Part shown: positions 6,625 through 33,433 of the stretch, one piece after another | How the letters are laid out: each line of letters opens with the position of its first letter | Numbering within the stretch: the first letter of the stretch is position 1 | From: Bradyrhizobium sp. CB1717 | GTDB taxonomy: Bacteria > Pseudomonadota > Alphaproteobacteria > Rhizobiales > Xanthobacteraceae | NCBI RefSeq assembly: GCF_029714325.1 | Contig: NZ_CP121666.1 | Span: 7,781,001 to 7,845,000 of the forward strand | Direction of reading: 5' to 3' | Length of the DNA: 64,000 nucleotides | Translations under genes and position numbers: made by a program | The notes under the pieces: generated by a model | Told to the model about the DNA's origin: nothing | Seen by the model: the letters and a program-made list of their open reading frames with translations, nothing else | Databases searched by the model: none

Positions 6625-6644
6625 TTGGGTAAGATCGCGTAACG
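6625..6644 (+). promoter_or_regulatory. TGGGTAA-type direct-repeat site 1 (degenerate second half)
   Basis: TGGGTAAGAT followed directly by CGCGTAACGA: two 10-base units in tandem, the second keeping only GTAA. It lies about 120 bases before the start of the minus-strand binding-protein gene. It is the weakest of five such sites in the window (others at 12783, 17413, 23921, 33414). Confidence 0.4.
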
Positions 6645-6654
6645 AAGGCAGCAT

Positions 6655-7911
6655 TCAGGACAGTCTGAAAAACTCCTTCGCGTTCTCGCCAAGGATTCTG
6701 ATTGCCAAGCGCTCTGCGTCTCGCGACCGGAAGTAACCGTTCGCGACTTTTTCGTTCAGAACCTCGCCGATCAACCGGCGCGCGCCCTGTATCGCGGCAA
6801 ACGTCTCCTCAACGTGAAGACAATCTCCTCCAATCATCATTCGCGATTCATCTGGCAAGACTTCAATGGCTTCTTTGAGGGCGAGCTTGAAATGTGACGG
6901 GCTCAACAGAAAAGACCAGCACAAATCAAGCCAGACATTTCGGTACACAAAGGCCATTCCCAACAGGTCCCGGCTCCATGGATAGGCCAAATGCATCAGC
7001 AGAAAGCGGGTCCGAGGATGACGCTCAATCAACCCGGTCATGCGCAGGGGGTGGGAGCCGCTTATGATTGCCGTTCCAAGATGAGTTTGGACTGGCAGGT
7101 CGGCCTCGCCTGCGAGTTGGCAAAACAAGTCGACGACAAAGTCGCAGAACGCCTTGCGCGCCGCAGGGGATGGAGATCTTTGTCCCCAAGCCTGCCGAGC
7201 CAGTTCCTCATCCGGTTCGTCAAAGCTTAGATTCCGGTCATAGGCGAGTGCGTTTTTGAGCGCAACGTGATTGCGCCGGGCGCAGCCGGCTACGAGCTCA
7301 CGGATTGCGTCGCAATAATCATCGAAGGTTTTCACCTCCAGGCCGAGGCGCCGCAGCAACGTATGCCCACAATTTCCATTATGATCGCGAGATTCGGGAT
7401 GCCAGCCGAGGGCGAATGCGTTAATGCGCAGGACCGCATCGTAACTTTGCCCAAGGACCGGCCGCGGATCCATCAACGGATCGAGAAACGGGTCCGTTAC
7501 GATCCTTCCGATGCCGGCCCGCCCAATCACTTCACTTGGCCATGTCGCCTCCTTGTGACGCAAGCGCACTGACTCGTCTACCGCCTCCCAGTTGTCGCGC
7601 GTGATTCCAGTGTCGGCGACGCCGTAAAGCTCGGCGACTCCGCGGACGAGGTTACGGACGAATGCGTTCGATCCGCTCCTCTCGAGGAACGGAGCAAGGG
7701 CCTCCCAGTTGGTCGGCTCGGTAGGGCTAGATATCACTTCGATCGTTGCCTTGGGCTCGGATGGCAGCACGTGGCTCGTCCAAGCCGCATAGCTCTGTTG
7801 GAGCAGTTTCAACAGATTTACGTCCGGGCTGTGTGCGACCTCGGGCATGTGATGTTCATGGACATCGACGACTTGGCACGCATTGACAAAATCGCTGATG
7901 GTTTCGGACAT
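6655..7911 (-). CDS. Amidohydrolase-family metal-dependent hydrolase
   Basis: 418 residues from the ATG at 7911, which has GAGAGGG a few bases upstream; a GTG at 7962 is a longer alternative. Near the N-terminus Val-Asp-Val-His-Glu-His-His resembles the metal-binding His-X-His of the amidohydrolase superfamily. A His in Pro-Val-Gln-Thr-His-Leu-Gly, a His in Met-His-Leu-Ala-Tyr-Pro and an Asp in Gly-Gly-Asp-Cys fit the later metal and catalytic positions of the Amidohydro_2 (TIM-barrel) group. The gene follows the ABC ATPase by about 77 bases on the same strand and is probably the last or next-to-last gene of the transport operon. It likely hydrolyses or decarboxylates the imported compound, but the reaction is not identifiable. 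Confidence 0.8.
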   Translation of the reverse strand: MSETISDFVNACQVVDVHEHHMPEVAHSPDVNLLKLLQQSYAAWTSHVLPSEPKATIEVISSPTEPTNWEALAPFLERSGSNAFVRNLVRGVAELYGVADTGITRDNWEAVDESVRLRHKEATWPSEVIGRAGIGRIVTDPFLDPLMDPRPVLGQSYDAVLRINAFALGWHPESRDHNGNCGHTLLRRLGLEVKTFDDYCDAIRELVAGCARRNHVALKNALAYDRNLSFDEPDEELARQAWGQRSPSPAARKAFCDFVVDLFCQLAGEADLPVQTHLGTAIISGSHPLRMTGLIERHPRTRFLLMHLAYPWSRDLLGMAFVYRNVWLDLCWSFLLSPSHFKLALKEAIEVLPDESRMMIGGDCLHVEETFAAIQGARRLIGEVLNEKVANGYFRSRDAERLAIRILGENAKEFFRLS

Positions 7912-7988
7912 GGACCCTCTCTGCTCAGCCATCTCAAGGAACTCGAATGCGCCACCTTCCACCAGGGAGTGGCCGCCGGCGAACGCCT

Positions 7989-8684
7989 CTACGGCGCCAG
8001 ATACGTCAACAGCCGCGGGTCGTTGCGCAGTTGTTGCGCCGGGCCCGAAAGCGCGACACGGCCGCGATCGAGCACATAGGCCTGCTCCGCTACACGCATT
8101 GCGAGGTCGAGATGTTGCTCGACGATGATGATGGCGATCTCTCCGGCTAGCTCGACCAAGCGCTCGGTGATCTCCTCGATGACGCCGATCCAGACACCCT
8201 CGGTCGGCTCATCCAGCAGGAGGAGTTTCGGGTTTCCGAGGATCGCGCGCCCGATTGCGAGCATCTTGCGCTCGCCACCGGACAGCGTTCCGGCCGGCTG
8301 ATCGAGGCGCTGGCCGAGTTTCGGAAACATCCTCATCACCCGGTCCACTGCCGATCCATCGCGGTGCAAAAGCGATCCGACGGCGAGATTGTCACGCACG
8401 GAGAGGCGCGCGAACACTGAATGCTCTTGCGGCACATATCCAATGCCGGCCCGCACCCGCACTTCGGTCCGCCGGCCATCGATGTCTTGGCCGTTGAACT
8501 GCAGGCAGCCCTTCCATGCCGGCAGTTCGCCCACAATCGCTTTCATGAGCGTGCTCTTTCCGGCGCCGTTGCGGCCGAGGACGGCCACCCCGCCACGCCG
8601 CGGGATGGCCATATTGACTCCGAACAAGACTTGGCTACGTCCATAGCCGGCATCGAGATGCTTGATATTGAGGAATTCAGGCAC
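7989..8684 (-). CDS. ABC transporter ATP-binding protein, UrtE/LivF-like
   Basis: 231 residues. Walker A is Gly-Arg-Asn-Gly-Ala-Gly-Lys-Ser-Thr, the signature motif Leu-Ser-Gly-Gly-Glu, and Walker B Leu-Leu-Leu-Leu-Asp-Glu-Pro. The Asp-Glu-Pro-Thr-Glu-Gly-Val segment is typical of UrtE/LivF proteins. I choose the GTG at 8684, which overlaps the end of the upstream ATPase gene by 8 bases (GTGCCTGA) and begins the protein at the expected place; the longer frame to 8732 would add 16 atypical residues. It powers the permease pair encoded upstream. Confidence 0.9.
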   Translation of the reverse strand: MPEFLNIKHLDAGYGRSQVLFGVNMAIPRRGGVAVLGRNGAGKSTLMKAIVGELPAWKGCLQFNGQDIDGRRTEVRVRAGIGYVPQEHSVFARLSVRDNLAVGSLLHRDGSAVDRVMRMFPKLGQRLDQPAGTLSGGERKMLAIGRAILGNPKLLLLDEPTEGVWIGVIEEITERLVELAGEIAIIIVEQHLDLAMRVAEQAYVLDRGRVALSGPAQQLRNDPRLLTYLAP

Positions 8685-9411
8685 GGCGCAAATAAATCTC
8701 CTGGACGCTTCTGTTGGCTTGGATCTCGGCAACCGTTCCTGACGCCAGCACCTTGCCCTGATCGAGCACGGTCAGGCGGTCACAGATGTCGCGGATGAAA
8801 TCCAGGTCGTGCTCCACGATGACGATCGAGCAATGCGGTTTGACCGGCTGCAGCAATTCGCCGGTGACGCGGCGCTCCTCCAGGCTCATGCCGCCGGTGG
8901 GCTCGTCCAACAGCAGCAGACGCGGTCGGCATGCGAGCGCCATCGCGATCTCCAACCATTGCTGCTGCCCGTGAGATAGGGTCGCCGCAGCATCAAAGGC
9001 GCGATCGGCGAGCCGGAACTGGAGGAGCAGCGTCATGACCTCCTCGTGCAGTCGTCCCCGAGTGCGCGAGAACGCCAGGTCAAGCAGTGACGACCGGGCC
9101 TGCAGTGCGAGCAGAATGTTGTCGTAAAGCGTGAGGGTCGGTAGCACGGCGGTGATCTGGAATTTCAGGCTCATGCCGGCTCGCGCACGCTCTGGCGGCG
9201 TAAACGAGGTGACGTCAGTGTTGATGAACGTCACCTTACCTCGGGTCGGCACGAGCGCACCTGCAAGACACTTCATCAGCGTGCTCTTGCCCGAGCCGTT
9301 CGGCCCGATGAGGCCATGAAACTCACTCTCGCCGACGGTGAGCGCCGCTCCGTCCAGAGCGGTGAGCTTGCCAAAGACCTTGGAGATGCCGGCGGCTTCA
9401 AGGAGCGGCAT
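8677..9411 (-). CDS. ABC transporter ATP-binding protein, UrtD/LivG-like
   Basis: 244 residues. Walker A is Gly-Pro-Asn-Gly-Ser-Gly-Lys-Ser-Thr. Instead of the classical LSGGQ it has Leu-Ser-His-Gly-Gln-Gln-Gln-Trp-Leu-Glu-Ile, which is characteristic of UrtD-type ATPases and points to a urea/amide rather than a plain branched-chain amino acid transporter. Walker B is Leu-Leu-Leu-Leu-Asp-Glu-Pro-Thr-Gly-Gly. It overlaps the permease gene upstream by 14 bases and the second ATPase gene downstream by 8 bases, so translation is probably coupled. Confidence 0.9.
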   Translation of the reverse strand: MPLLEAAGISKVFGKLTALDGAALTVGESEFHGLIGPNGSGKSTLMKCLAGALVPTRGKVTFINTDVTSFTPPERARAGMSLKFQITAVLPTLTLYDNILLALQARSSLLDLAFSRTRGRLHEEVMTLLLQFRLADRAFDAAATLSHGQQQWLEIAMALACRPRLLLLDEPTGGMSLEERRVTGELLQPVKPHCSIVIVEHDLDFIRDICDRLTVLDQGKVLASGTVAEIQANRSVQEIYLRRA

Positions 9412-10474
9412 TGCGCTTCTCCTTGAGGCTCGGGCCGAAATGACCTACACGTTCCCGCTCGCCCAACACGAGGCTGATCAAGCCGAGGGGCCGGAACAGA
9501 ATGACGAGCAACAGCAGAACGCCGAGAATGATCGGCCAAATATCGCGATAGTTGTCGGACAGCCAGAAGCTGAGTCCCTCGACAATCGCCGTGCCGATGA
9601 CCGCACCGATCAATGTCCCGGAGCCGCCGAACAAGACGTAGAGCACGACCTGAGTCGACATGACCACGCCCAGCATGTTCGTCCAGACGAACCCCTCGTG
9701 AAACGCATAAAGGCTACCGGCAGTACCTGCAATCGCGCCGCTGATTGCGAATATGATCGCCTTCAAATGTTGCACTTTGTACCCGAAGAAGGCGATCCGC
9801 TGTTCGTTCTCTCGCAATCCCGCCAGCGCGAGGCCGAACTGGGATCGCAACAGAAAGCGCGACAGAAGGTAGATTAAAACTAGAATGGCGAGCACCAGGT
9901 AGTAGAAACCTGGGCCCTCGCTCAATTCGTGCGAGCCGATTGTCATCGGTTGGATCGACGGAATACCGTTCTGACCGCCAAGATAATGTGAACCTCTCGC
10001 CAGGCGGTCAGCTGCGTAAGCTCCGGTCATAGTGCCAAGCGAAACGAAGACCACACTGGAGGGGTGACGGCCGAGCAGCAGGAAGCCCGCCAGCAACAAT
10101 GCGGCCACAAAGCCTATCAGGGTTCCGGCCGGAAGAACGGCAAAGATCGATCCAACCCCGAAATCGCGAGAAAGCAGCGCCACACCGTAGCCGGCCATGC
10201 CGAAGAACAGCGACTGACCCAAGCTCAAGATACCCGCATAGCCCCACACCAGATCGAACGATAACGCGAAGAGGCACAGAATGAGCACTCGTGTCGCATA
10301 GACAGTGATGTAATCCCGCAAGACGAGAGGTGCGATGGAAGCGGCAATCAGCAACGCTAGTTCGAGAATCGGAAGCACCTTCTTTCGCCCTGCGAAGGCA
10401 GATGCCATGAGGGGCGAACGAGCAGCTTCAATGACGCGTGGCGGGGGCTGTATGCCAGTGCCGGTCGATGACAT
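9398..10474 (-). CDS. ABC transporter permease, UrtC/LivM-like
   Basis: 358 residues with about 9-10 hydrophobic segments. The motif region Phe-Asp-Leu-Val-Trp-Gly-Tyr-Ala-Gly-Ile-Leu-Ser-Leu-Gly-Gln is the conserved block of UrtC/LivM permeases. Translation probably starts at the ATG at 10474, which overlaps the stop of the binding-protein gene (TGATG); a GTG two codons upstream is possible. The N-terminal ~30 residues are cytoplasmic and variable. Confidence 0.9.
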   Translation of the reverse strand: MSSTGTGIQPPPRVIEAARSPLMASAFAGRKKVLPILELALLIAASIAPLVLRDYITVYATRVLILCLFALSFDLVWGYAGILSLGQSLFFGMAGYGVALLSRDFGVGSIFAVLPAGTLIGFVAALLLAGFLLLGRHPSSVVFVSLGTMTGAYAADRLARGSHYLGGQNGIPSIQPMTIGSHELSEGPGFYYLVLAILVLIYLLSRFLLRSQFGLALAGLRENEQRIAFFGYKVQHLKAIIFAISGAIAGTAGSLYAFHEGFVWTNMLGVVMSTQVVLYVLFGGSGTLIGAVIGTAIVEGLSFWLSDNYRDIWPIILGVLLLLVILFRPLGLISLVLGERERVGHFGPSLKEKRNAAP

Positions 10475-11694
10475 CAGCACTCCTTCGGATCGACCAGGCC
10501 GGCGCTGCGCGCGACGATCTCGTACTGGCCGCCCTTCGCCACTCCGATGTACATCTTCATCCTGCAGTGCCGCTTGCCGGGCGCCATCTCGGCAGGCCCG
10601 CCCGGCCCTTCCGCAATTTTCGCGTGGTCGAGGGCGGCGGCTACCGCGTCGCGGTCAATTGTACCGGCCTCCTTCACTGCAGCTTCCCACAGCTTCAGTC
10701 CTCGATAGGTGCCGGTAGCGGCGCTGCCTGCCGAGAACCGGAACTTGGCAGGGAATTGTTTGTCGTAAGCCGATTGAATCCTGGCGCTCACTGGATCCTC
10801 CGCCGCGAGCACCTTGTAGTAGTCGAGGCTGCTCGCAAGCCCTTCAATCTCATGGGCCTGGTTCATTTCCAGGAAGTTTTCGTCGTAATAGACGCAGCCC
10901 AGCCGCCCGCCGTTTTTGGAGAATCCGGCTTGGTAGAGCTGTTTGAAAAACGGGCTAACGCCGGGCGGGACAATGGCGTTGAAAACCACGTCTACTTTGT
11001 TGGATATGATGCGGTTAACCGTAGAGGAAAAGTCGATCTGATCGAGCGGGTAGTATTCTTCAAAGACGACTTCGCCACCACTGCTCTGGATCACCTTGCG
11101 CGCATAGGCGTTAATTGTTTGCGGCCAAACATAATTGGAGCCAGGTAGGGCAAAGCGTTTGCCACCATTTTTGATCAACCAGGGAATGAACTGGTCGCAA
11201 TTTTGAGCCGGTACCGGCCCGGTGCAGAACAGAGAGGGCGTGCACTCTTTGCCTTCGTAACCTTCCGGATAGATATAGAGCGTTTTGCCGCGAGAGATAA
11301 TGACGTCCTTGATCGCATTGCGCATCGAACTCGAGATACCGCCGATCACCAAGTCGACCTTGTCTCGCTGAATCAGCTTGCGCACATTTCCCACGGCGAC
11401 GGATTCGTCGGAGGCAGTATCCTCAATCAGGAGTTCGATCGGGCGTCCCAACAGGCCGCCGGAGTCGTTGATCTCCTTGACCAGCATGCGAGCGACATTG
11501 GCGTCGGTGTTGCCGGCAAAGCCGAGTGACCCCGTAAGATCGGTCGCAATGCCGAGCCTAATCGGACCTTCCGCAGCGTTCGCCCAGTCCGGGCGAATCA
11601 CCCAGCTCCCGGGGCCCGCGGCGATGGCCGCAGAAGCGAAGGCAAAATTGCCGAGAAAGCGGCGGCGGCTCAGTTGACGGTTGGCGTTGATCAT
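10474..11694 (-). CDS. Tat-exported ABC transporter substrate-binding protein, UrtA-like (copy 2)
   Basis: 406 residues with a twin-arginine signal (Leu-Ser-Arg-Arg-Arg-Phe-Leu-Gly) and the same type I binding fold as the copy at 5282-6502. The two differ by scattered conservative substitutions, indicating a duplication followed by modest divergence. The ATG at 11694 overlaps the stop of the upstream permease gene (ATGA) and is preceded by GAGGGG. Lying between the two permease genes, it is the operon's primary binding protein. Confidence 0.9.
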   Translation of the reverse strand: MINANRQLSRRRFLGNFAFASAAIAAGPGSWVIRPDWANAAEGPIRLGIATDLTGSLGFAGNTDANVARMLVKEINDSGGLLGRPIELLIEDTASDESVAVGNVRKLIQRDKVDLVIGGISSSMRNAIKDVIISRGKTLYIYPEGYEGKECTPSLFCTGPVPAQNCDQFIPWLIKNGGKRFALPGSNYVWPQTINAYARKVIQSSGGEVVFEEYYPLDQIDFSSTVNRIISNKVDVVFNAIVPPGVSPFFKQLYQAGFSKNGGRLGCVYYDENFLEMNQAHEIEGLASSLDYYKVLAAEDPVSARIQSAYDKQFPAKFRFSAGSAATGTYRGLKLWEAAVKEAGTIDRDAVAAALDHAKIAEGPGGPAEMAPGKRHCRMKMYIGVAKGGQYEIVARSAGLVDPKEC

Positions 11695-12554
11695 CGGTTG
11701 ACCCCTCTTCCCGAAATTAGGCCTTGCGGCCGGAACTTGATGAAAATGATGGCGAGCACGAACACCAGAACGTCGGCGATGACCGGCGACATCAGCCAAG
11801 GCAACCAGGCACTGAACGTGCCGATGACGCTGGCGCCCGCGACCGGGCCCGCGAAGGACCCGACGCCGCCGACCATCACGGCAACAAAACTCTGGATAAG
11901 AAATCGGATGCCGAGATCGGCGAACAGCGAAAAGACCGGCACGATCAGCGCGCCGGCGAGGCCCGCGAGCGCCGCGCCAAACGCAAAGGTGACGCTGTAG
12001 ATCATGCCCGTGGAGATGCCCGAGGCACGCGCTAGCTGTGGGTTCTCCAGCGAGGCGCGGACTCGCAGGCCGAACGAGGTATGGGCAAGCAGTGCATGGC
12101 TCGCGGCCATCACCAGCAAAGTGATTATGACGATGACGCTCCGCCAGGCGGCGAAATGCAGGCCACCGATCATGATAGAGCCACTGATTGGCTCCGGCAC
12201 GGAGAGATAGAGTCCGCCGGTCAGGCCGCGCACGGCTTCACGAATGATCAGCCCGAGCGCATAGGTGCCAAGCATGGCGACGATTGGAGCGGCGTAGAAC
12301 CGTCGCACCACGACTTTTTCCAGCACGAAACCAAGCGCGCCGACCGCGACGGGCGCAACAAGCATGCCGAGCGGGACCGGCAAACCGAGGCTGTGCACGA
12401 GATAAGTGACGTAGGCGCCCAGCAGGACGAACTCGCCCTGGGCGAAGTTGAAGATACCCATCATGCTGGCAATGATTCCGAGGCCGAGCACGACCAGGAC
12501 AACGATCGCGCCGAAGCTCAAGATTTCGAACATGGCGATAAGTAGCGTATCCAT
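11691..12554 (-). CDS. ABC transporter permease, UrtB/LivH-like
   Basis: 287 residues with about 8 membrane segments. The Gly-Ile-Phe-Asn-Phe-Ala-Gln-Gly-Glu-Phe block and the later Gly-Gly-Val-Gly-Ser-Phe-Ala-Gly-Pro-Val loop are the family hallmarks. It is the first gene of the transport operon (12554 down to 5282), and a TGGGTAA-type direct repeat lies about 230 bases upstream. Confidence 0.9.
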   Translation of the reverse strand: MDTLLIAMFEILSFGAIVVLVVLGLGIIASMMGIFNFAQGEFVLLGAYVTYLVHSLGLPVPLGMLVAPVAVGALGFVLEKVVVRRFYAAPIVAMLGTYALGLIIREAVRGLTGGLYLSVPEPISGSIMIGGLHFAAWRSVIVIITLLVMAASHALLAHTSFGLRVRASLENPQLARASGISTGMIYSVTFAFGAALAGLAGALIVPVFSLFADLGIRFLIQSFVAVMVGGVGSFAGPVAGASVIGTFSAWLPWLMSPVIADVLVFVLAIIFIKFRPQGLISGRGVNR

Positions 12555-12782: not shown

Positions 12783-12802
12783 TGAGTAATGTTGGGTAAT
12801 GT
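12783..12802 (+). promoter_or_regulatory. TGGGTAA-type direct-repeat site 2
   Basis: TGAGTAATGT followed directly by TGGGTAATGT: two 10-base units differing at one position. It lies upstream of the minus-strand ABC transporter operon. The 10-base period places both half-sites on the same face of the helix. Confidence 0.55.
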
Positions 12803-13462: not shown

Positions 13463-15232
13463 TCATGATGCCGCCGCGGGCTGCTCCTGTCGCGCCGACC
13501 GCACGATGCTGTGGACCGCGCGGTAGGCGAACACGATCGCCGGCCCGATTGTAATGCCTGCCCCAGGATAGATTCCACGCATCGGCGAGGTCATGTCATT
13601 GCCGCAGGCATAAAGTCCTGCGATCGGCGCCCCATTTCCATTCAGGACCTGTCCCTCTGCATCTGTTGAGAGGCCGGTCGCCGTCCCAAGGGTTGCCGGG
13701 ACAATTGGGAGTGCGATGAATGGGCCGCTCTTGATAGGCCCAAGGTTCGGGTTTTTCTTTCCGACCGCCGGATCTCCCAGCGTGCGGTTGAAAGCCGATT
13801 CCCCCCGGTTGAAGAGCGGATCGCGTCCTTCAGCTGCGTGGGCATTGTGTTCTTCAACGGTCTTTTGGAGCTCGTCGGGGTCGAGCCCCAATTCCGCTGC
13901 AAGCTCCGCAATAGTCCGGCCGATCTCGATGTAGCCCAACCGGGCATACTTGTTGATACTCAATGTCCATGGCCAGGGGAGCAGATGTCCCATGCCCCTG
14001 AGGCGAACGAATTCCTTGTCGCAGATGAAATAGAACCGCTTGTCCGCCGGATAACCGTTGTTGAACATGGCAAGGCAGATATCATGATACGAATTGGATT
14101 CATTGACGAAGCGCTTGGCATTTGGCCCCACCGCGATGACGCCTGGACGGCCACGATCGAGCCAGCCGTACGGGACCACTTGCAAGGAGCGGCCGTTCCT
14201 GAGGATCGAGACGGGCGTCCAGAAGCCGCTCGATGCAACGTCATTATCGATCGCAGCTCCGAGCTTGCCTGCGAGCGCAATACCATCGCCGGTGACATCG
14301 CTGTGGGCGAGCGTATCATTGTGCTGGTGGGCTCCGCTGAGCTGGGCGCGTAATTTCCCGTTCCGCGCAAAGCCACCGGTTGCCAGGATCACTCCGTGCG
14401 AGGCGCGGACGCGGAGATCTCTGCCATCCCGCTTGAGGAGTGCGCCAGTAACTCTCCCTCCCTCCCTCGTCAGATCTACCGCCGGGCAGCGTGGCCGGAT
14501 TTCAACGCCATATCTACGAAGGCTTACCAATAACCGCGCAATCAGCGCATTCCCGCCACTGAGTTCAGTGCCCCTCCTGTAGCGCAGCCGGTCGCCTGCG
14601 TAGCGGCTGACCCGGCGCAGGACGTGTTTGAGCGAGGCAGCCGACTGGAAGGGGTTGAGGAAACTTCTGACCTCGCCGGACGAAATCATCATGCCGCCGA
14701 GCACGACGCGAATCGGATCACCTATCAGGTCGAAATCCTTGCCGAGAAGCCGTCCGTCGTAAGGTGCTGGGCTCAGCGCCCGCCCCTTGTCGACCCCGCC
14801 GATTTGGCTGGAATGATAATCTGGAGCGGAGGCCAGTGTGAACTTCACTTCGCTCCCATTCTCCAAGCTGGCGAGCGCCGTTGGGCCGTCTTCAAGATAA
14901 GCGTCCACGAACTCGGGGCGATAGTAATTGCCAAGTTCGTGTTGCAGATAGGTCTTCACTTTCGCAATCGAATCATCGATTTTCGCGGCTCGGGCCTGTA
15001 TTGAGCATGGAACCCAGATCATGCCGTTCGACAGGGCGGTCGTGCCACCGAGCCGGTCAGACTTCTCGCACACCGTCACGCGAAGCCCGGCCTTTGCCGC
15101 ATAGAGCGCTGCGGACAGTCCGGCCGCGCCGCTACCGATCACGAGCACGTCCGTCTCCAAATCGTGCGTTGGCTTGCTTGCTTTGGAGAAGGAAGCGGCA
15201 TTGGGTTTCAATTCGGCGACTGGGCTATTCAT
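13463..15232 (-). CDS. FAD-dependent oxidoreductase, fumarate reductase / ketosteroid dehydrogenase-like flavoprotein
   Basis: 589 residues. Residues ~28-60 form a Rossmann dinucleotide site (Val-Leu-Val-Ile-Gly-Ser-Gly-Ala-Ala-Gly-Leu-Ser-Ala) ending in an acidic residue. Later come Leu-Ala-Thr-Gly-Gly-Phe and, near the C-terminus, Gly-Leu-Tyr-Ala-Cys-Gly-Asn-Asp with Pro-Gly-Ala-Gly-Ile-Thr-Ile-Gly, all typical of the FAD_binding_2 family. Such enzymes reduce or dehydrogenate a C-C bond next to a carbonyl; the substrate is unknown. Its ATG overlaps the stop of the barrel-protein gene by 8 bases, so it is the third gene of the operon starting at 17331. No signal sequence is seen, so it is probably cytoplasmic. 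Confidence 0.85.
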   Translation of the reverse strand: MNSPVAELKPNAASFSKASKPTHDLETDVLVIGSGAAGLSAALYAAKAGLRVTVCEKSDRLGGTTALSNGMIWVPCSIQARAAKIDDSIAKVKTYLQHELGNYYRPEFVDAYLEDGPTALASLENGSEVKFTLASAPDYHSSQIGGVDKGRALSPAPYDGRLLGKDFDLIGDPIRVVLGGMMISSGEVRSFLNPFQSAASLKHVLRRVSRYAGDRLRYRRGTELSGGNALIARLLVSLRRYGVEIRPRCPAVDLTREGGRVTGALLKRDGRDLRVRASHGVILATGGFARNGKLRAQLSGAHQHNDTLAHSDVTGDGIALAGKLGAAIDNDVASSGFWTPVSILRNGRSLQVVPYGWLDRGRPGVIAVGPNAKRFVNESNSYHDICLAMFNNGYPADKRFYFICDKEFVRLRGMGHLLPWPWTLSINKYARLGYIEIGRTIAELAAELGLDPDELQKTVEEHNAHAAEGRDPLFNRGESAFNRTLGDPAVGKKNPNLGPIKSGPFIALPIVPATLGTATGLSTDAEGQVLNGNGAPIAGLYACGNDMTSPMRGIYPGAGITIGPAIVFAYRAVHSIVRSARQEQPAAAS

Positions 15233-17331: not shown

Positions 17332-17412
17332 GATCTTCCTCCTAGACGTTTCTGGACATTTGGAGGTCTAGATCGAAGTAAAATGGCTCATAAGCCCGGA
17401 TACGAGCGCACC

Positions 17413-23920: not shown

Positions 23921-23940
23921 TGGGTAGGGTTGGGTAGAAA
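23921..23940 (+). promoter_or_regulatory. TGGGTAA-type direct-repeat site 4
   Basis: TGGGTAGGGT followed directly by TGGGTAGAAA. Unlike the other sites it precedes a plus-strand gene, lying about 60 bases before the ATG at 24003 and just before an alternative GTG at 23943. Confidence 0.5.
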
Positions 23941-24002
23941 CCGTGAGAGCCAATGTTTTGGGTCGCCTTGCCGCAAGTCTCTCCTCGTCTCGCGGTGATC
24001 AG

Positions 24003-26313: not shown

Positions 26314-26370
26314 CTCAGTGGTCCGCGTGTCGATCCTGAGCCGGCATCATCGCACGGCTCGACGTCAAGA

Positions 26371-27483
26371 CTAGCTCCAAGTCGCAGGTGCTTGCAACCG
26401 CCGTACCGCCTTTCCGTTGCTCATGAACAAGTGGCAATCGGCTGGAGCGGCGGTCAGGCCGAGCTTTCCGGCGCTTTTGCGCGAGCCGGATTTTGGGGCC
26501 CTGGCGACGACCGTTTCGTCTCCAACGTTGCCGTAGATGTACGTGACGCTACCGAGATGCTCAACGAAATCCACGTCGAGTCCAATGGAGATCTCCTGCT
26601 GGTTGGGTGCCGGCGAGGAGAAGTCATCCGGGCGGATTCCGACAGTGACCGGCTTACCAACTAGCATTTGGTCCGGCTGGACCGGAACGGAGATCGTAGA
26701 ACCGGCCTCCAGTCGGACGTCAAGGCCATGCTCGTGAGCTGCCTCGACCTTGCCGCCCAGGAAGTTCATCTTCGGCGAGCCGATGAATCCTGCCACAAAG
26801 CGCGAGGCGGGATTGTGATATAGATCGTGGGGGCTGCCGACCTGTTCGATGTTGCCGTCCTTGAGGACGACAATCTTGTCGGCCATGGTCATCGCCTCGA
26901 CCTGATCATGCGTCACATAGATCATGGTATTTCCGAGTTGCTTGTGGAGCTTGGCGATTTGAACCCGCATTTGCACGCGCAACTCGGTGTCCAGGTTGGA
27001 CAGGGGCTCATCGAACAGGAACACTTTTGGTTCTCGCATAATGGCGCGCCCGATTGCGACGCGCTGGCGTTGCCCGCCTGAAAGTTGTCGAGGCTTGCGA
27101 TCCAATAGATGGTCGATCTGCAATAGCGACGCTGTTTTGGCTATCTTGGCGGCGATCTCGGCCTTCGAGGCTTTGGCCATGCGCAGGGGAAAGGCCAGGT
27201 TCTCTCTCACCGTCATATGCGGATAGAGAGCGTAACTCTGAAAGACCATGCCGAGGTTACGATCGGCCGCATCGATGTCGTTGACGAGCTCATTGTCGAT
27301 GAGGAGCCTCCCACCGCTGATGGGCTCGAGCCCGCCAATCATGCGCAGAAGGGTGGATTTGCCTGACCCGGACGGACCAACGAAGACGACAAATTCGCCG
27401 TGATCGATGGTCAGGTCGACATTACGCAGGATCTCGATGGTCCCGTAGGCCTTCCAGAGGCCCTCCAGGCGAACGTTGGCCAT
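26371..27483 (-). CDS. Carbohydrate ABC transporter ATP-binding protein, UgpC/MalK-like
   Basis: 370 residues: an ATPase domain (Walker A Gly-Pro-Ser-Gly-Ser-Gly-Lys-Ser-Thr, signature Leu-Ser-Gly-Gly-Gln-Arg-Gln-Arg, Walker B Phe-Leu-Phe-Asp-Glu-Pro) and a C-terminal MalK-type OB-fold/regulatory region from about 235 containing Val-Gly-Ile-Arg-Pro-Asp-Asp. The ATG overlaps the stop of the HAD gene (TAATG). It energises the two permeases encoded at 30008-31842. Confidence 0.92.
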   Translation of the reverse strand: MANVRLEGLWKAYGTIEILRNVDLTIDHGEFVVFVGPSGSGKSTLLRMIGGLEPISGGRLLIDNELVNDIDAADRNLGMVFQSYALYPHMTVRENLAFPLRMAKASKAEIAAKIAKTASLLQIDHLLDRKPRQLSGGQRQRVAIGRAIMREPKVFLFDEPLSNLDTELRVQMRVQIAKLHKQLGNTMIYVTHDQVEAMTMADKIVVLKDGNIEQVGSPHDLYHNPASRFVAGFIGSPKMNFLGGKVEAAHEHGLDVRLEAGSTISVPVQPDQMLVGKPVTVGIRPDDFSSPAPNQQEISIGLDVDFVEHLGSVTYIYGNVGDETVVARAPKSGSRKSAGKLGLTAAPADCHLFMSNGKAVRRLQAPATWS

Positions 27484-28310
27484 TATGCCCTCCTCTGTCG
27501 CGCCTGAGCCGCGCGAGCAGCACTTACCTCAATTTCGCGCAAGCTCGATACGATGAAGTCGGGGGCCATCAAGAATGGATCCTGACGCATCGGCACGCCG
27601 GTTGTGACAAGCACCGTGGCAAGACCCGCCCTCTTTCCGGCTTGGATATCAGTAGGAACTTGGTCTCCGATCATAATGGTCGAAGCGCGGTTCGTGCCGA
27701 GGCGTGAGAGCGCTGTCTCGATCATCGGCACTTGCGGCTTTCCGGCGATCGAAGGCTGCACTTGCGTGGCGGCAGCCACAGCTGCAATCGTCGCGCCAGC
27801 CCCAGGTTCAAACCCGCTGGCCGTCGGCAGCAGAAGATCGGGATTGGTTCCGATGAAGACAGCGCCATTGAGGATCGCCTCAACGGCAATTCGCATCTTC
27901 TCGTGCGTGATATCCCGGTCAAGCCCCATCACAACGGCTTCGGGCGTTCGGTCAGTGACCTCCAGCCCAACATCGCGCATGGCCGTGACAAGCGAGGGAG
28001 CGCCGATGACATAGATTCGCGTCAACTGCGGATAATTCGCTCGAATGAGTTCTGCGGCGGTGATGGCGCTTGTAACGACCTCTGACGGTGCGATGGAAAG
28101 ACCAAATCCTCTCAGCTTGCGGACGACGTCCTCCGGGGTATGCGTGGAATTGTTCGTCACAAAACAGAACGGCAGGCCGGCTTTCTGCCATCGCGTAAAT
28201 GCTTCTATGGCATCCGCCATTGCGGTGCTGCCACGATAGACGACGCCATCCAGATCGGAGATGATCCCTTCTATCGGCGGCCAGTTGACGTTGGAGCCGG
28301 TGCTAACCAT
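27483..28310 (-). CDS. HAD-superfamily phosphatase, NagD-like (class IIA)
   Basis: 275 residues. HAD motif I is Asp-Leu-Asp-Gly-Val-Val-Tyr-Arg-Gly, motif II Val-Thr-Asn-Asn-Ser, motif III a Lys in Ile-Ala-Gly-Lys-Pro and motif IV Gly-Asp-Gln-Val-Pro-Thr-Asp-Ile. This is the IIA cap subclass, which dephosphorylates small sugar or nucleotide phosphates. Its start overlaps the end of the SDR gene. In this operon it probably removes phosphate from a sugar-phosphate intermediate. Confidence 0.9.
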   Translation of the reverse strand: MVSTGSNVNWPPIEGIISDLDGVVYRGSTAMADAIEAFTRWQKAGLPFCFVTNNSTHTPEDVVRKLRGFGLSIAPSEVVTSAITAAELIRANYPQLTRIYVIGAPSLVTAMRDVGLEVTDRTPEAVVMGLDRDITHEKMRIAVEAILNGAVFIGTNPDLLLPTASGFEPGAGATIAAVAAATQVQPSIAGKPQVPMIETALSRLGTNRASTIMIGDQVPTDIQAGKRAGLATVLVTTGVPMRQDPFLMAPDFIVSSLREIEVSAARAAQARQRRA

Positions 28311-29073
28311 TCATCAGCATCCCGCCATTCACATGGACAATCTGTCCGGTCATGTAGGACGCAGCGGGGCTCGCCAGGAACACCGCGAGCCCTGCGATAT
28401 CTTCAGGCAATCCGACCCGGCCCAGCGGAATTCGGCCACTGTGGCGCGCTTCGGTCTCCTCCCGCGGGCGCCCGTGCATGGGTGTATCGATAATCCCGGG
28501 TGCGATCGCGTTGACGTTGATCTTGAGCGGAGCACATTCATAAGCGAGCAGCTTTGTCACGTCGTGCACGATGGCCTTTGACAAGCAATAATCAGCGCCG
28601 CCCGCCTGGTAGTTGAAAACCGCGCCTTGAGATGACAACGAGGACCCGACATTGACGATGCGGCCGCCTTTGCTCTTCATGAAGCGCTCGATCGTTTGCT
28701 TGGCACAGCGAAGCACTGCGACGGAGTTGATCCGTATGGTTTTTTCGATTCTACCGGCATCGCCGGTTAGAAGCGGCTGAGCCGATTTTATTCCGGCGTT
28801 GTTGATCAGGACATCGAGCCTGCCGAAGCGCTTGGCGATCTCATCAAGCACCCTACCGACATCGTCTTCTCGAGACACGTCCATGCTCATGGGCAGGATG
28901 CCATTGCCGTGCGGCAAGCGCGTCAGAATGTCCCGGAGATTTTCCACATTTAGGTCGGTTGCCAGGACGTTCGCGCCGCCTTGACGAAAAGCATTGGCAA
29001 TGGCTGAGCCAATGCCCCCACCCGCACCGGTCACGAGCACGGTCCTGTCTGCAACTGAGAACTTTTCGGTCAT
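28303..29073 (-). CDS. Short-chain dehydrogenase/reductase (SDR)
   Basis: 256 residues. Cofactor site Val-Thr-Gly-Ala-Gly-Gly-Gly-Ile-Gly at about 12-20, Asn-Asn-Ala-Gly near 90, catalytic Ser-Ser in Val-Gly-Ser-Ser-Leu and Tyr-Cys-Leu-Ser-Lys supplying the Tyr-X-X-X-Lys pair. The Asp in Leu-Ala-Thr-Asp-Leu after the second strand favours NAD(H). The ATG at 29073 overlaps the ribokinase-family gene stop (ATGA). It likely oxidises a sugar or polyol. Confidence 0.92.
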   Translation of the reverse strand: MTEKFSVADRTVLVTGAGGGIGSAIANAFRQGGANVLATDLNVENLRDILTRLPHGNGILPMSMDVSREDDVGRVLDEIAKRFGRLDVLINNAGIKSAQPLLTGDAGRIEKTIRINSVAVLRCAKQTIERFMKSKGGRIVNVGSSLSSQGAVFNYQAGGADYCLSKAIVHDVTKLLAYECAPLKINVNAIAPGIIDTPMHGRPREETEARHSGRIPLGRVGLPEDIAGLAVFLASPAASYMTGQIVHVNGGMLMNG

Positions 29074-30011
29074 TCCAACTCCAAGATCGTTTGAGAATTC
29101 AGAAATTCGTCGACGGCCCAACCGCTGGGCATCGAGCTTTGGGCGCCGCGTCGCGTCACACATAACGCGGCAACCGCGAGCGCCTTTTTGATCGCTTCTC
29201 TTATCGGCAACCGATGGGCAAGAGAGGCTGCGAAGGCTCCATTAAAGGCGTCGCCCGCCGCGGTCGTATCAACGACCTTCACTGGAAATGCCCGTAGCGC
29301 AAAAGACGCGCTGGCATCAGCGTAGTAGGCCCCCTGCGCACCAAGCGTGATCAGGGCGGCTCTTGGCCCGAGATCGAGAAGCTTTCCGGCCGCATGAGCG
29401 GCGCTGTCGAAGTCGTGCACCTCGACACCGGTGAGCTCGAAAGCTTCCGTCTGGTTTGGAGTGACGAAATCAACACTCCTCCACGCCGCCGCGGACAGGC
29501 CCGCCCTCACGGGGGCCGGATTGAAAATGAGATCGAAACCTTTGACGCTCTTCATTGCAAAGAGATGATTGAGCGCGGGGATCGGCATGCCCATCTCGGC
29601 CACGACGATTGCGTCCCGCTGAATGAATTCAGCAGCCTTTTCGACCATGCTTGGTGTGACATTTGCATTGGCGCCCGGGTCTATGACGATCATGTTGGAG
29701 CCGTCGTCACCGACAAGGACGAGAGCAGAACCCGATATCTCCCCTGGGCACACCGCTATGGCATCGAGACGGACGCCTGCCTCACGCAGCGCTTGCAGCA
29801 ATGATCGACCGGCGTCGTCATCGCCAAGTCGGGTGTAGAAGCTCGGCCGAAGGCCCAATCGAGCGGCGGCGACCGCCTGATTGGCGCCCTTGCCTCCCGC
29901 ATTCCGCTTCAAGCTTCCCATCAAGCTTTCACCCGGCGTTGGAATCCGCTCGACGTTGAAGCAGAGGTCGAGATTTGTCGTGCCGAAGAACATCAATGGT
30001 CTGGGGCTCAT
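29070..30011 (-). CDS. PfkB-family carbohydrate kinase, ribokinase-like
   Basis: 313 residues. An N-terminal Gly-Gly-Lys-Gly-Ala-Asn-Gln-Ala block (substrate side) and a C-terminal Asp-Thr-Thr-Ala-Ala-Gly-Asp-Ala-Phe-Asn-Gly-Ala-Phe signature, where the Asp of Gly-Asp is the catalytic base. In most members the signature is Asp-Thr-Thr-Gly-Ala-Gly-Asp, so one Gly is replaced by Ala. The ATG at 30011 overlaps the permease stop (ATGA); the longer frame to 30212 is the permease region in another frame. It phosphorylates the imported sugar or a derivative. Confidence 0.9.
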   Translation of the reverse strand: MSPRPLMFFGTTNLDLCFNVERIPTPGESLMGSLKRNAGGKGANQAVAAARLGLRPSFYTRLGDDDAGRSLLQALREAGVRLDAIAVCPGEISGSALVLVGDDGSNMIVIDPGANANVTPSMVEKAAEFIQRDAIVVAEMGMPIPALNHLFAMKSVKGFDLIFNPAPVRAGLSAAAWRSVDFVTPNQTEAFELTGVEVHDFDSAAHAAGKLLDLGPRAALITLGAQGAYYADASASFALRAFPVKVVDTTAAGDAFNGAFAASLAHRLPIREAIKKALAVAALCVTRRGAQSSMPSGWAVDEFLNSQTILELE

Positions 30012-30868
30012 TTCACTGCCCCGAAGGTAAGACCACGTTCGAGATGACGCTGGCCAAGGATGATCAGGACGACCGGCACAATCATGGTCACCACCAGACC
30101 CGCAGCCATCACCGGATAGAACTGAACGCCCGGATTGAGCAGCTTGAGCAGGGCGACGGTGACTGGTGCTTTCGTCGAACTGAGGATCAGGCCGAGCGCG
30201 AAGTTGTGCCACGCGAGCAGGAAGATAAGCAAAGAAGCGCCTATCAAGCCGGGCTTTAGAAGCGGAAGAACGATGTGCCAGACAACCCGGATTGGCTTTG
30301 CGCCATCCATGGCGGCCGCCTCCTCAATGTCCTTTGGGATGTCCTCGATATATGAACGGCTCAGCCAAATGATCATTGGCAGCGTGACGACTTGATAGAC
30401 CCAGATCATACCGAAATAGGTGTCGTAAAGGCCGACTGCCTGAAACACGCTGAACAGAGGTATGACGACAAGTAGAGCCGGCGCGAAGCGGAAGCCCAGA
30501 ATGAAGAATGCGATGTCCTCCTTCATTGGGATATCACGCCTCGCCAGGACGTAGCCTGCCGGTATCCCGGCAACGAGCGATACGAGCACCGCACCAAGCG
30601 AGATCACGACGCTATTAGTGACCGGGGTCAGGAAATCAACCTTGATGGTGCCGTAGCTTGTTGCCCCGGCCTGGGCGGCATCGAACAAAACGCGGAAGTT
30701 TTCAAATGTTGGAGTGAAGATAAAGCGCGGCGGCCAGGTCATGACCTCGGCCTGCTGCTTCAGCGACATCATCACGATCCAGACCAACGGAAATGTCAGG
30801 ATCAGCGTACAAGCCACAACCAGCAGATTAAGGAACAAGCTTGCAGGCGTTGAGCGACTGAAACGCAT
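30008..30868 (-). CDS. Carbohydrate ABC transporter permease, MalG-like
   Basis: 286 residues with six predicted membrane segments and the EAA loop Ile-Glu-Glu-Ala-Ala-Ala-Met-Asp-Gly-Ala that docks on the ATPase. GAGGAGG lies 5 bases before the ATG at 30868, 11 bases after the end of the partner permease gene. Confidence 0.92.
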   Translation of the reverse strand: MRFSRSTPASLFLNLLVVACTLILTFPLVWIVMMSLKQQAEVMTWPPRFIFTPTFENFRVLFDAAQAGATSYGTIKVDFLTPVTNSVVISLGAVLVSLVAGIPAGYVLARRDIPMKEDIAFFILGFRFAPALLVVIPLFSVFQAVGLYDTYFGMIWVYQVVTLPMIIWLSRSYIEDIPKDIEEAAAMDGAKPIRVVWHIVLPLLKPGLIGASLLIFLLAWHNFALGLILSSTKAPVTVALLKLLNPGVQFYPVMAAGLVVTMIVPVVLIILGQRHLERGLTFGAVK

Positions 30869-30879
30869 GTCAGCCTCCT

Positions 30880-31842
30880 CTAGCTTACGCGGTGCCGGAC
30901 CAACCGCCACAATCTCACCATGACAAAGGTCCCGAGAAGCACGATCATCCAATTGACAACCATGAGCGCGGCACCACGCCCGAAGGCGAGATTTTGAAAG
31001 GCCGTGATGTAGGCGCGAACCGAGAGCACGGAAGTACTGTCACCCGGCCCCCCCTGGGTTGTTCCGAAGATGATATCAAACTGATTGAGCGATTCGATCA
31101 GCCGAAATACCGCGGCGATCAGGATGTACGGTGCAATGAGCGGAAGCTCGATATGGAGGAACGTTGCCCAACCCCGCGCGCCATTGACCCGCGCGGCTTC
31201 TCTGACCTCATCGTTGATGCCCTGCAAGCCGGCGAAGATGATTAGCGCAAAAAATGGTGTGTAAGTCCATATGTCGATGAGAACCAGCGAGCACATCGCC
31301 GTGCTGGCATCCGAAATCCATGCGAACCGACCGATCCCAATGAGCGAAAGCAAATAGTTCAGGATCCCATTCTGCGGATCCATCATTGTGGTCCACATCA
31401 AAGCGACGCTCATTGGCGGCAGAACCAGGGGAAGGAGAATGACGGGCCGCATCAGCCGGGCAAGGAACACCCCACTTGCGAATAGTTTGGCGAGCGCAAG
31501 GCCAAAGAACGCTTCGGCGAGCACGGCGGAGCAGGCATACGCCATAGTTGCCCGCACGCTATTCCAGAAATCTTGGCTCTTGATTGCCACTTCATAGTTG
31601 GTGAATCCAATGAACCGAACCACGGGACGGCCAAACTTGAGATCGGTCAGTGATTGAAAGACCCCATAGAAAAACAGAAAAAGAAATCCAAGCAGGATGA
31701 TGATTGCGGGGGCAATCGCAGCGAGGCTCAACCAGTCAAGAGCATTCTGCTCGGCCTTTTGCGCCTGCTCGTTTTTGGACGAGACCAGCTGGTCTGCCGA
31801 TGATTGTAGCGTCACGATTGCGTCGATGCCTTGAAGGTCCAT
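30880..31842 (-). CDS. Carbohydrate ABC transporter permease, MalF-like
   Basis: 320 residues with six main membrane segments after a ~35-residue cytoplasmic N-terminus. The EAA loop is Glu-Ala-Ala-Arg-Val-Asn-Gly-Ala-Arg. It lies between the binding-protein gene (67 bases upstream) and the second permease gene. Confidence 0.92.
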   Translation of the reverse strand: MDLQGIDAIVTLQSSADQLVSSKNEQAQKAEQNALDWLSLAAIAPAIIILLGFLFLFFYGVFQSLTDLKFGRPVVRFIGFTNYEVAIKSQDFWNSVRATMAYACSAVLAEAFFGLALAKLFASGVFLARLMRPVILLPLVLPPMSVALMWTTMMDPQNGILNYLLSLIGIGRFAWISDASTAMCSLVLIDIWTYTPFFALIIFAGLQGINDEVREAARVNGARGWATFLHIELPLIAPYILIAAVFRLIESLNQFDIIFGTTQGGPGDSTSVLSVRAYITAFQNLAFGRGAALMVVNWMIVLLGTFVMVRLWRLVRHRVS

Positions 31843-31909
31843 CGCTCACTTCTCAAAAGATACTCGGGCGTGGTTGGGGCGACAAACCCTTATGCCGCCC
31901 CCGACCGCC

Positions 31910-33295
31910 TTACATGGAGGAGCGGATCTCGGAGGCGAGGTCGGTCAACGTCGCCTTCACGTCCGCGCCGTTGACCATTTTCTGCATGGCAATTGCCCAG
32001 GCGTTCATTGCCTCGGCAAATCCTACGCGCGGCGTAAAGGCCAATGCAGCCCTGTCCTGCACGATTTTGAAGGTATCCACGAAGTTCGTGAATTCCGGTT
32101 TAGCCGCGTAGTCGAGCCAAACCTTGTCGCTCCAGGTGGAGGCGCGCGGAGAGTTGACGAGCTTCCCGGCGACGGCACCGTTGAGCTCGACCTGCTTTGA
32201 CGTCGCCCACTGGATGAACAGCCAGGCTGCTCCCTTTTTCTGAGAGGCCGCATTCATGGCGAGGGACCAGATCCAGATGTTCGATTCGAAATTCTTGCCG
32301 TTTGGAGCGCGCAGAGGGGGAGCGAATGCAATCTTGCCCGAAGCGGGCTTGCCGGCGACATCGTTCCAGAACCCGAACATGTTGGAATCGATCGCCATCG
32401 CTGTCCGACCCGAATTGATGCCATCGACCACCTGATACCAGTTGTCGTTGGCAAAGGATGGAGCCGCGCACTTCTTGATCATCTCCACATAATCCTTGTG
32501 GAAGGCGACCGACTCAGGCGAATCGAGACCAGTTTCTAATTTGCCGTCCTTAACCACGAAGTCGTGCACACCGTAAGACTTTGCAATCGAGATTGCGGCC
32601 GTGTGGATGCTGCTCCAAAAGCGGACTCCCCGCACGCCCAGAGGTGTGATCGCCGGATCCGCAGATTTCAGCTTCTCGCAAGCCGCGGACATCTCCGACG
32701 GGGTTGTCGGAACCTTGATACCGTGCTTGTCCAGAATGTCCTTACGGTAGAATAATTGGATGTTTTCGAACCCGTGCGGGATAGCCCACACCTGACCCCG
32801 GCCCGCTTCGATTTGCCCGCCATTAACTTGCCACGTCAGCGCGTCACGCAACGCGGGGAAGAAGTCCTTGTAATCATAGCTTGCCGAGGTGAGCTTGGGG
32901 TTGTTCAGATAGCGGTCGAGCGGCTCGAGTAGTTGACTGGGCGCGAGATCCCAAGCCGGCTGAATCCCCGTGCCGACGACGTCCCACGAGGGCGACTTCG
33001 TGCTCAGCTGGATTGTCAGCTTATTCCAGTAGGCGTCGTCCGGATAAAGTTCGGGCGTCACTTTGATGCCTGTCAACTTCTCGAACTCAGGCAGCTGTGC
33101 TGCAACGGCGTCAGCATATGGATGGATGTCGTAAGCCCACACGAGCGAAGAGCCCTCGAACTGGCGCCAGTTGATATCCTCCGCTTTGGCCTGGACGAAA
33201 GATGCGGCCGCACCGGCCAAGAGCGTTGAGCAAATCAGAGCGGTTTTGACGAAATGAGCCGAATGGCCGCGCAAAGCGCCTGGCGTCCTTGGCAT
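31910..33295 (-). CDS. Carbohydrate ABC transporter substrate-binding protein
   Basis: 461 residues with an N-terminal signal peptide (basic start, hydrophobic Leu-Ile-Cys-Ser-Thr-Leu-Leu-Ala-Gly, likely cleavage after Gln-Ala-Lys-Ala). The mature protein has the Family 1 solute-binding fold of MalE/UgpB relatives, with Leu-Thr-Gly-Ile-Lys-Val near residue 75 of the precursor. GAGGAGG lies 6 bases before the ATG at 33295. It is the first gene of the eight-gene operon ending with the regulator at 24559. Confidence 0.92.
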   Translation of the reverse strand: MPRTPGALRGHSAHFVKTALICSTLLAGAAASFVQAKAEDINWRQFEGSSLVWAYDIHPYADAVAAQLPEFEKLTGIKVTPELYPDDAYWNKLTIQLSTKSPSWDVVGTGIQPAWDLAPSQLLEPLDRYLNNPKLTSASYDYKDFFPALRDALTWQVNGGQIEAGRGQVWAIPHGFENIQLFYRKDILDKHGIKVPTTPSEMSAACEKLKSADPAITPLGVRGVRFWSSIHTAAISIAKSYGVHDFVVKDGKLETGLDSPESVAFHKDYVEMIKKCAAPSFANDNWYQVVDGINSGRTAMAIDSNMFGFWNDVAGKPASGKIAFAPPLRAPNGKNFESNIWIWSLAMNAASQKKGAAWLFIQWATSKQVELNGAVAGKLVNSPRASTWSDKVWLDYAAKPEFTNFVDTFKIVQDRAALAFTPRVGFAEAMNAWAIAMQKMVNGADVKATLTDLASEIRSSM

Positions 33296-33322
33296 TAGTC
33301 CCTCCTCTGGGCTCTTTGACCC

Positions 33323-33336
33323 GCAATTCACGTGCC
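33323..33336 (-). promoter_or_regulatory. Candidate sigma-54 promoter (-24/-12) before the sugar transport operon
   Basis: On the minus strand GGCACGTGAATTGC has GG and GC separated by exactly 10 bases, within the consensus TGGCACG-N4-TTGC. It stands 28 bases before the start codon, which would give a short leader containing the ribosome site. The operon's own regulator lacks GAFTGA, so another activator would be needed, or the match is accidental. Confidence 0.35.
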
Positions 33337-33413
33337 CCTTCTCTTCCAGGGCCGCGAGTGTTGGAAACGCTAACCGCCATTTTCCGCCCATATGCACCCA
33401 TTCAGATCGAAGT

Positions 33414-33433
33414 TGGGTAACATTGGGTAAGTC
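33414..33433 (+). promoter_or_regulatory. TGGGTAA-type direct-repeat site 5
   Basis: TGGGTAACAT followed directly by TGGGTAAGTC, the best conserved pair. It lies about 120 bases before the start of the sugar-binding-protein gene and about 80 bases upstream of the candidate -24/-12 sequence. Confidence 0.6.

Follow-up and report, generated by a model that had tools for sequence, protein, structure and literature searches.

A 64-kb stretch of the Bradyrhizobium sp. CB1717 chromosome (hereafter the window) carries five tandem pairs of a TGGGTA unit, which we interpret as the binding sites of a regulator whose gene lies at 24559-26313. This protein would activate three operons of the window, probably by class I recruitment of sigma70 polymerase, and we place the probability of this reading at about 0.74. 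The evidence was obtained in silico and consists of the motif itself, its conservation, its co-occurrence with the regulator gene, its spacing to the promoter, the loss of the GAFTGA loop from the regulator and a difference in promoter type between relatives with and without that loop. As the best reading of the compared sequences, the operator appears to have outlived a switch from sigma54 to sigma70. The candidate operators and the regulator gene are as follows.

6626..6642, + strand: operator pair with a degenerate second unit (TGGGTAAGATCGCGTAA), upstream of copy 1 of the Urt-type binding protein gene; two mismatches to TGGGTARNNNTGGGTAR
12783..12799, + strand: operator pair (TGAGTAATGTTGGGTAA), upstream of the UrtB-like transporter operon; one mismatch
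17413..17429, + strand: operator pair, upstream of the UPF0261/PEP_hydrolase/FAD (flavin adenine dinucleotide) operon; exact
23921..23937, + strand: operator pair, directly before the small barrel gene; exact
33414..33430, + strand: operator pair, upstream of the sugar ATP-binding cassette (ABC) operon that terminates with the regulator gene; exact
24559..26313, - strand: regulator with a putative PEP_hydrolase (TIM-barrel) sensor, a degenerate sigma54-activator AAA+ domain and a Fis-type helix-turn-helix (HTH); last gene of the sugar operon

Operator Pairs in the Window

The original prediction had placed tandem TGGGTA units at 12783, 17413, 23921 and 33414, and all four were recovered, three as exact copies of TGGGTARNNNTGGGTAR and one with a single mismatch. 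The degenerate pair that it put at 6625 is also real, being kept in 7/10 relatives, but it starts at 6626 and its second unit reads CGCGTAA. Scanning the window at ≤2 mismatches to TGGGTARNNNTGGGTAR returned just these five sites, as had been expected from inspection by eye, against 0.34 expected by chance and a maximum of 2 in 100 shuffles. Exact TGGGTA-N2..5-TGGGTA occurs three times in the window, each time with N4, and never in 100 dinucleotide shuffles. In the complete genome of the strain (9,232,581 bases), four sites match TGGGTARNNNTGGGTAR at ≤1 mismatch and every one of them falls inside the window; the reversed pattern likewise gives four matches, so that it is the clustering of the sites and not their number that is telling.

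On the + strand, each of the five pairs reads TGGGTA, and none falls within a called gene, in agreement with the claim that they are intergenic and precede the heads of transcription units. The 17 bp distance implied for the 33414 site did not stand, because the binding-protein gene very probably starts at 33295, which leaves the site ~119 bp upstream. The 23921 pair ends 5 bp ahead of the start codon of the small barrel gene. By eye, the window sites show no palindrome. A third unit conserved beside the pair is not general among window-type loci; one or two extra degenerate units accompany it in six of them (L011, L012, L016, L017, L018, L020).

Conservation and Co-occurrence with the Regulator

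A scan of genome contigs yielded 33 loci, 28 of which are Bradyrhizobium loci with a full-length regulator. The sugar-operon site is present at ≤1 mismatch in 28/28 of these, including two (L028, L029) in which the operon is partly deleted, and the UPF0261-operon site is exact in all 13 loci that reach the gene, with the far end of the pair 98-99 bp from the gene start. Six of seven loci keep the UrtB-operon site at ≤1 mismatch and the seventh has two, which together bear out the expectation of conservation upstream of orthologues. The small-barrel site is found at ≤1 mismatch in 20 of the 23 loci possessing that gene. In five loci (L072, L073, L078, L081, L083), a single pair lies between the small barrel gene and the divergent UPF0261 operon. 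For the 6626 site, 11 relatives were fetched, 10 of them with the gene start, and TGGGTAAAATCGCGTA is kept before the orthologous gene in seven of these; in L133, from another family, a site of this type, TGGGTAAA(G/A)TTGCGTA, precedes both paralogues.

We then compared the distribution of sites and regulator across 242 Bradyrhizobium genomes using a strict form of the motif, TGGGTARNNTTGGGTAR. It occurs in 44/44 genomes with a full-length regulator orthologue versus 1/198 without (Fisher p ~1e-47, uncorrected for kinship), with a total of 143 sites in 45 genomes against 3 matches for the reversed control in the same 242 genomes. Taken with the four sites in 9.23 Mb of the strain's own genome, all in the cluster, this speaks against the background frequency that the original prediction had named as a test. 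The sole regulator-less genome with the strict form, G095, has it once, ahead of a truncated sugar operon. The loose pattern at ≤1 mismatch has matches in 160/242 genomes and therefore does not discriminate by itself. Genome G210, whose regulator shows 39% identity, carries TGGGTAGAACTGGGTAA directly upstream of its UPF0261 gene; a single C makes it count as lacking the strict form. The operators persist in G178, where ~1.3 kb separates two pieces of the regulator gene (L084 10295-13415).

Such sites also stand ahead of further operons in other species, among them one in which an amidase gene is followed by another sugar transporter; this operon is annotated as such in L132 (one mismatch) and was assigned in L032 and L083 from position and an equal-length open reading frame (ORF). 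Two further observations were made in these stretches. L072 holds a second, decayed UPF0261/PEP_hydrolase/FAD operon (7777-10611), whose operator is intact and which is accompanied by an incomplete small barrel gene, and a further operator class (C/TGGGTA..TTGGGTAA) lies ahead of other genes at L071 8077, L073 8593, L080 486 and L083 9063.

The Motif in Divergent Loci

Thirty-seven distant loci were examined, in which the regulators are mostly 31-39% identical to that of the window (60-64% in L120, L121 and L133; partial in L148 and L149). The TGGGTARNNNTGGGTAR-type motif is present at ≤1 mismatch in 29/37, with 40 matches versus 10 for the reversed pattern and 17 versus 1 when exact matches are counted. 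The reversed matches fall in 7/37 loci, and 7 of the 10 are near gene starts, some probably being true sites; by our reading this control is conservative, since it can match true sites with an AAAA spacer. In a blind count of identical 6-mer pairs at periods of 7-30, TGGGTA at period 10 ranks first (20/37 loci), and no TGGGTA pair occurs in these loci at any other period in that range. The runner-up, GCCGCC at period 18 (18 loci), looks like codon-periodic GC repeats.

In six of the seven loci from other families of the class (the exception being L100), the site is followed by Urt-like transporter genes and UPF0261 in one same-strand run, which also holds PEP_hydrolase where the fetched stretch reaches that far. 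As transporter and UPF0261 stand here behind one site, the two separate clusters of the window belong together, which supports the proposal that a single regulon joins them. Among the named records in which the cluster occurs are Shinella, Phyllobacterium, Azospirillum, Mesorhizobium japonicum pMLa, Rhizobium gallicum and Sinorhizobium fredii pNGR234a; the Azospirillum record (L122) has no site at ≤1 mismatch.

The Regulator Has Lost the GAFTGA Loop

The barrel of the regulator matches PF09370 (E 7.4e-86) and the solved relative 2P10 (E 5.4e-38), the AAA+ domain matches PF00158 (E 9.8e-17; 61.6 bits against a cut-off of 20.2, and is thus recognised as a sigma54-interaction domain), and the C terminus matches PF02954 (E 2.9e-08), the Fis-type HTH; the protein also matches PF25601. 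Pfam returned no sigma-factor domain in this protein. Its best NCBIfam match is DhaR, at 118.4 bits far below the cut-off of 551, and VpsR is among the solved structures that it matches. Sequence and alignment show that the GAFTGA loop is deleted and that Walker B reads LLLHVDQ, its acidic residues gone.

Among 41 aligned regulators, GAFTGA is found only in L136, L139, L140, L144, L146 and L147, and it is absent from 28/28 Bradyrhizobium regulators checked. Despite this decay of the AAA+ domain, 35/41 have an exact SRKTLYNK, the central part of the recognition helix in the HTH (exceptions: L100, L121, L128, L137, L146 and the partial L149). A tree was computed for 79 proteins, selected by hand from protein listings and the aligned loci; several long branches leave its details unsure. 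Its 47 GAFTGA-less rows need two changes, and the same number when the GAFTGA columns are left out. Forty-five of the 47 form one clade (Shimodaira-Hasegawa-like approximate likelihood ratio test 100) with the GAFTGA-bearing rows around it, and L100 together with P0081 represents a second loss.

Promoter Type Follows the GAFTGA State

Sixty-four loci were scanned for the sigma54 promoter TGGCAC-N5-TTGC, scoring exact matches only. All six loci with a GAFTGA-bearing regulator, which represent about four lineages, have an exact promoter (TGGCACGGCACTTGC or TGGCACGGCTCTTGC) 48-98 bp downstream of TGGGTA units; in four of them (L136, L140, L144, L146) the arrays include exact inverted TACCCA, and in L139, L140 and L147 single half-sites lie near the promoter. 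None of the 58 GAFTGA-less loci, among them the window and 28 Bradyrhizobium loci, has an exact sigma54 promoter with a half-site ≤200 bp upstream, and three hold such a promoter anywhere in their 1.32 Mb. Promoter type follows the GAFTGA state of the regulator. In the GAFTGA-less loci the motif is TACCCA-N4-TACCCA when read toward the UPF0261, sugar and Urt genes. Near the operator of two loci with a GAFTGA-less regulator (L135 8280, L143 8305) we noticed TGGCACGGATCTTCC, which may be a decayed sigma54 promoter or may have arisen by chance.

To characterise the promoters of the GAFTGA-less loci, 138 sites at ≤1 mismatch were reduced to 59 clusters of <70% mutual identity, some of which are probably spurious. 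Their profile shows T at +20 in 40 clusters and at +21 in 36, with a weaker TA-rich box at +43 to +49. For exact sites (n=97; 38 clusters), the fit to TTGACA-N16..18-TATAAT peaks at +20 with 5.47/12, compared with a maximum of 4.42 in 200 shuffles, and a stricter set of 26 clusters at <50% identity gives 5.23 at +20 versus a shuffle maximum of 4.65. The centre of the motif would accordingly lie at about -63 relative to the sigma70-like promoter signal, and -63 is near the class I position of CRP. One such promoter was predicted in the window.

17365..17393, - strand: predicted sigma70-type promoter of the UPF0261 operon; TTATGA (17393-17388), 17 bp, TAGACC (17370-17365)

We had also considered the direct repeat as a class II site over the -35 element, from a TTATAC-like stretch ~20 bp off. 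This was dropped because the TT at +20/+21 and the TA-rich box at +43 to +49 in the 59-cluster profile correspond to a -35 element, a 17 bp spacer and a -10 element, although the UrtB promoter of the window may have a class II arrangement.

Proposed Mechanism and Evolution

We infer binding, activation, effector and polymerase contact as follows. A substrate or intermediate of the pathway is the probable signal for the N-terminal barrel, which is a paralogue of the enzyme encoded at 15225-16094, and ligand-controlled activation through the barrel is the likely mode. The Fis-type HTHs would bind the TGGGTA(A/G) units, and several of them could line up along a single DNA face, since the units are one helical turn apart. 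With GAFTGA and the acidic Walker B residues lost, the regulator should not open sigma54 polymerase; from about -63 it would instead probably recruit sigma70 polymerase in class I fashion. The Tm-1-like enzyme operon, the sugar transporter/kinase operon including the regulator gene itself, and the Urt-like transporter with its amidohydrolase would thus be co-activated, and the sensor may be tuned by the small, truncated barrel protein from the divergent gene.

In evolutionary terms, ancestral GAFTGA-bearing barrel-AAA-Fis activators would have served sigma54 promoters from arrays in which TGGGTA units are succeeded by inverted TACCCA. One large alphaproteobacterial clade would then have lost GAFTGA together with the ATPase residues, with the two-unit direct repeat kept and shifted to about -63 of a sigma70 promoter, so that a looping enhancer would have turned into a recruiting class I site. 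That one regulator family exchanged its polymerase partner beneath a fixed operator is, in our estimation, somewhat better than an even bet.

Several observations weigh against the proposed model. Fis-type HTH dimers mostly bind inverted repeats, and a direct repeat is unusual for them. The 44 regulator-bearing genomes are related and hence not independent, and the promoter clusters behind the sigma70 signal are partly homologous. In the window, the UrtB and sugar-operon promoters do not have TT at +20 and fit the profile poorly, and the 6626 site is missing in 3/10 relatives. Eight divergent loci (L100, L122, L138, L139, L140, L147, L148, L149) have no match to the motif at ≤1 mismatch, yet all eight have a full or partial regulator, and just 28 of the 40 matches (25 loci) lie ≤420 bp ahead of a start recognised as that of a UPF0261, UrtB, binding-protein, permease or small-barrel gene. 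Finally, one report describes a permease gene called y4oQ as strongly down in RpoN-deficient Bradyrhizobium DOA9 (PMC13207237); if y4oQ is the sugar permease of the window, a putative identity, sigma54 input, direct or not, is possible.

Alternative Explanations

The regulator could bind the sites and yet repress, blocking the promoters in the absence of ligand. TyrR represses as well as activates, and at the small barrel gene the 5 bp between pair and start codon is a position typical of repression; before the other operons, however, the predicted -35 element is downstream of the pair, and the GAFTGA-bearing relatives have sigma54 promoters, which require an activator, so we regard repression as rather unlikely. 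It is also conceivable, if a degree less credible still, that a different transcription factor uses the sites as its operators, the barrel-AAA-HTH protein being encoded nearby and no more than a neighbour. Direct repeats are commoner among other regulator classes, the co-occurrence concerns the whole cluster and not the regulator alone, and the G095 site stands before its truncated sugar operon without a regulator. Against this, the neighbouring genes differ from one to another of the 37 divergent loci, in most of which regulator and motif persist, promoter class tracks the GAFTGA state (6/6 versus 0/58) and the recognition helix is nearly invariant.

The same proximity to the small-barrel start codon might suggest that the leaders contain an attenuation or other RNA element. 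We rejected this explanation as highly improbable: the repeat reads TGGGTA before the small barrel gene and TACCCA before UPF0261, i.e., it is used in both orientations, the pairs lie upstream of predicted promoters, and in the five loci with a single shared pair one site serves two divergent genes. That the repeats are functionless, arisen by chance or copying, has next to no probability, for although the UPF0261 and small-barrel sites may stem from one ancestral site, the counts are far above chance and the sites are conserved amid diverged flanks and across families. Activation by the 24559-26313 regulator through the five pairs remains the reading that we prefer.

Genes of the Window

The genes served by the candidate operators were identified from profile and structure searches.

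23943..24554, + strand: small, probably truncated barrel gene, 203 aa; divergent partner
16081..17331, - strand: UPF0261/Tm-1-like protein; PF06792, PF23189; matches solved Tm-1 and UPF0261 chains
15225..16094, - strand: PEP_hydrolase-like barrel protein; PF09370 E 6.9e-89; 2P10 Mll9387 E 1e-53
13463..15232, - strand: FAD-dependent oxidoreductase (PRK06134-like); PF00890; NF004789 above its cut-off
11691..12554, - strand: UrtB-like permease, head of the Urt-like operon; PF02653; TIGR03409 under its cut-off
6655..11799, - strand: remainder of the Urt-like operon (binding protein, permease, two ATPases, amidohydrolase); Pfam, NCBIfam
5282..6502, - strand: Urt-type binding protein copy 1; PF13458, PF13433; TIGR03407 under its cut-off
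26371..33295, - strand: sugar ABC operon (binding protein, two permeases, PfkB kinase, SDR, HAD phosphatase, MalK-like ATPase); Pfam

The ORF of the sugar binding protein extends over 31910-33397, and its true start is very probably the ATG at 33295 rather than 33397: a strong ribosome-binding site, GAGGAGGG, lies ahead of this ATG, and tblastn matches to divergent relatives often start several to 28 residues inside the protein. The small barrel gene is open in divergent Bradyrhizobium at 54-60% identity, and its fold model (mean predicted local distance difference test score 72) best matches 2P10, a Mesorhizobium structure of the PEP_hydrolase family (TMq 0.48); given this conservation and the match of the model, it is probably a truncated relative. 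The presence of CUT1 and Urt-type transporters with amidohydrolase/amidase, PfkB kinase, SDR and HAD phosphatase leads us to guess at a compound bearing sugar and amide groups as the substrate class.

A HipA-like gene (19588-20970) separates the Tm-1 operon from the small barrel gene and recurs in just 3 of 28 relatives' stretches (L006, L008, L031). The window spans 7.781-7.845 Mb of the 9.23-Mb chromosome, and nifH (7915294-7916112 of the same chromosome) lies 70 kb past its end; the cluster is therefore probably in or near the symbiosis island or region.

Comparison with Known Systems

Proteins in which a TBST/PEP_hydrolase (PF09370) domain is fused to a sigma54 activator have the same domain set as the window regulator and are annotated at source as 'putative TIM-barrel enzyme/transcriptional regulator with AAA-type ATPase domain'. 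Among the literature matches listed, we found no operator, regulon or sigma assignment for such fusions, and no paper on this operator, on the regulon or on a family that combines the two promoter types with a single half-site. The present analysis thus offers a predicted DNA target and regulon for a regulator class for which no study was found, with a putative sensor that is a paralogue of the enzyme it probably controls. The symbiotic plasmid of NGR234 encodes a homologue 37% identical to the window regulator. In the Bradyrhizobium japonicum CPAC 15 island, y4pA (bjs_08283, 58,369-60,123) is, at 1755 bp, equal to the window regulator gene in length, the only property compared; the paper that lists it counts y4pA as a sigma-54 factor copy (PMC9069715), unlike the window regulator, in which Pfam finds no sigma-factor domain and from which GAFTGA is absent. 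The GAFTGA-less sequence contradicts both this label and that of relatives described as sigma-54-dependent, which calls for correction of the annotation.

The pair of bacterial UPF0261 and TBST proteins is given as the source of plant Tm-1, with co-evolution of the two, in passages that do not deal with regulation (PMC5028733), and the window likewise encodes both families side by side. The regulon may provide a handle on the role of the bacterial Tm-1/PEP_hydrolase proteins, which have a virus-resistance gene of plants among their relatives.

Classical NtrC-type activators differ from the window regulator, which has neither GAFTGA nor an acidic Walker B nor an exact -24/-12 promoter near its sites. 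Loss of GAFTGA with sigma70 dependence is already known from TyrR, DhaR, HupR and Caulobacter NtrC, described as GAFTGA-defective, sigma70-type regulators in two articles (PMC3162934, PMC12421884). Like these, the window regulator joins an NtrC-type AAA+ domain to a Fis HTH, has lost GAFTGA and is associated with a sigma70-type promoter signal, predicted in silico and weak at two window sites; GAFTGA is missing from VpsR, too. Unlike TyrR, DhaR, HupR and Caulobacter NtrC, it would sense through a PEP_hydrolase-type barrel and bind a 10-bp direct repeat, and its half-site is shared by relatives of the same architecture that have GAFTGA and sigma54 promoters. Because the family has sigma54- and sigma70-type members over one operator word, the change of polymerase partner can be tested by comparing natural relatives.

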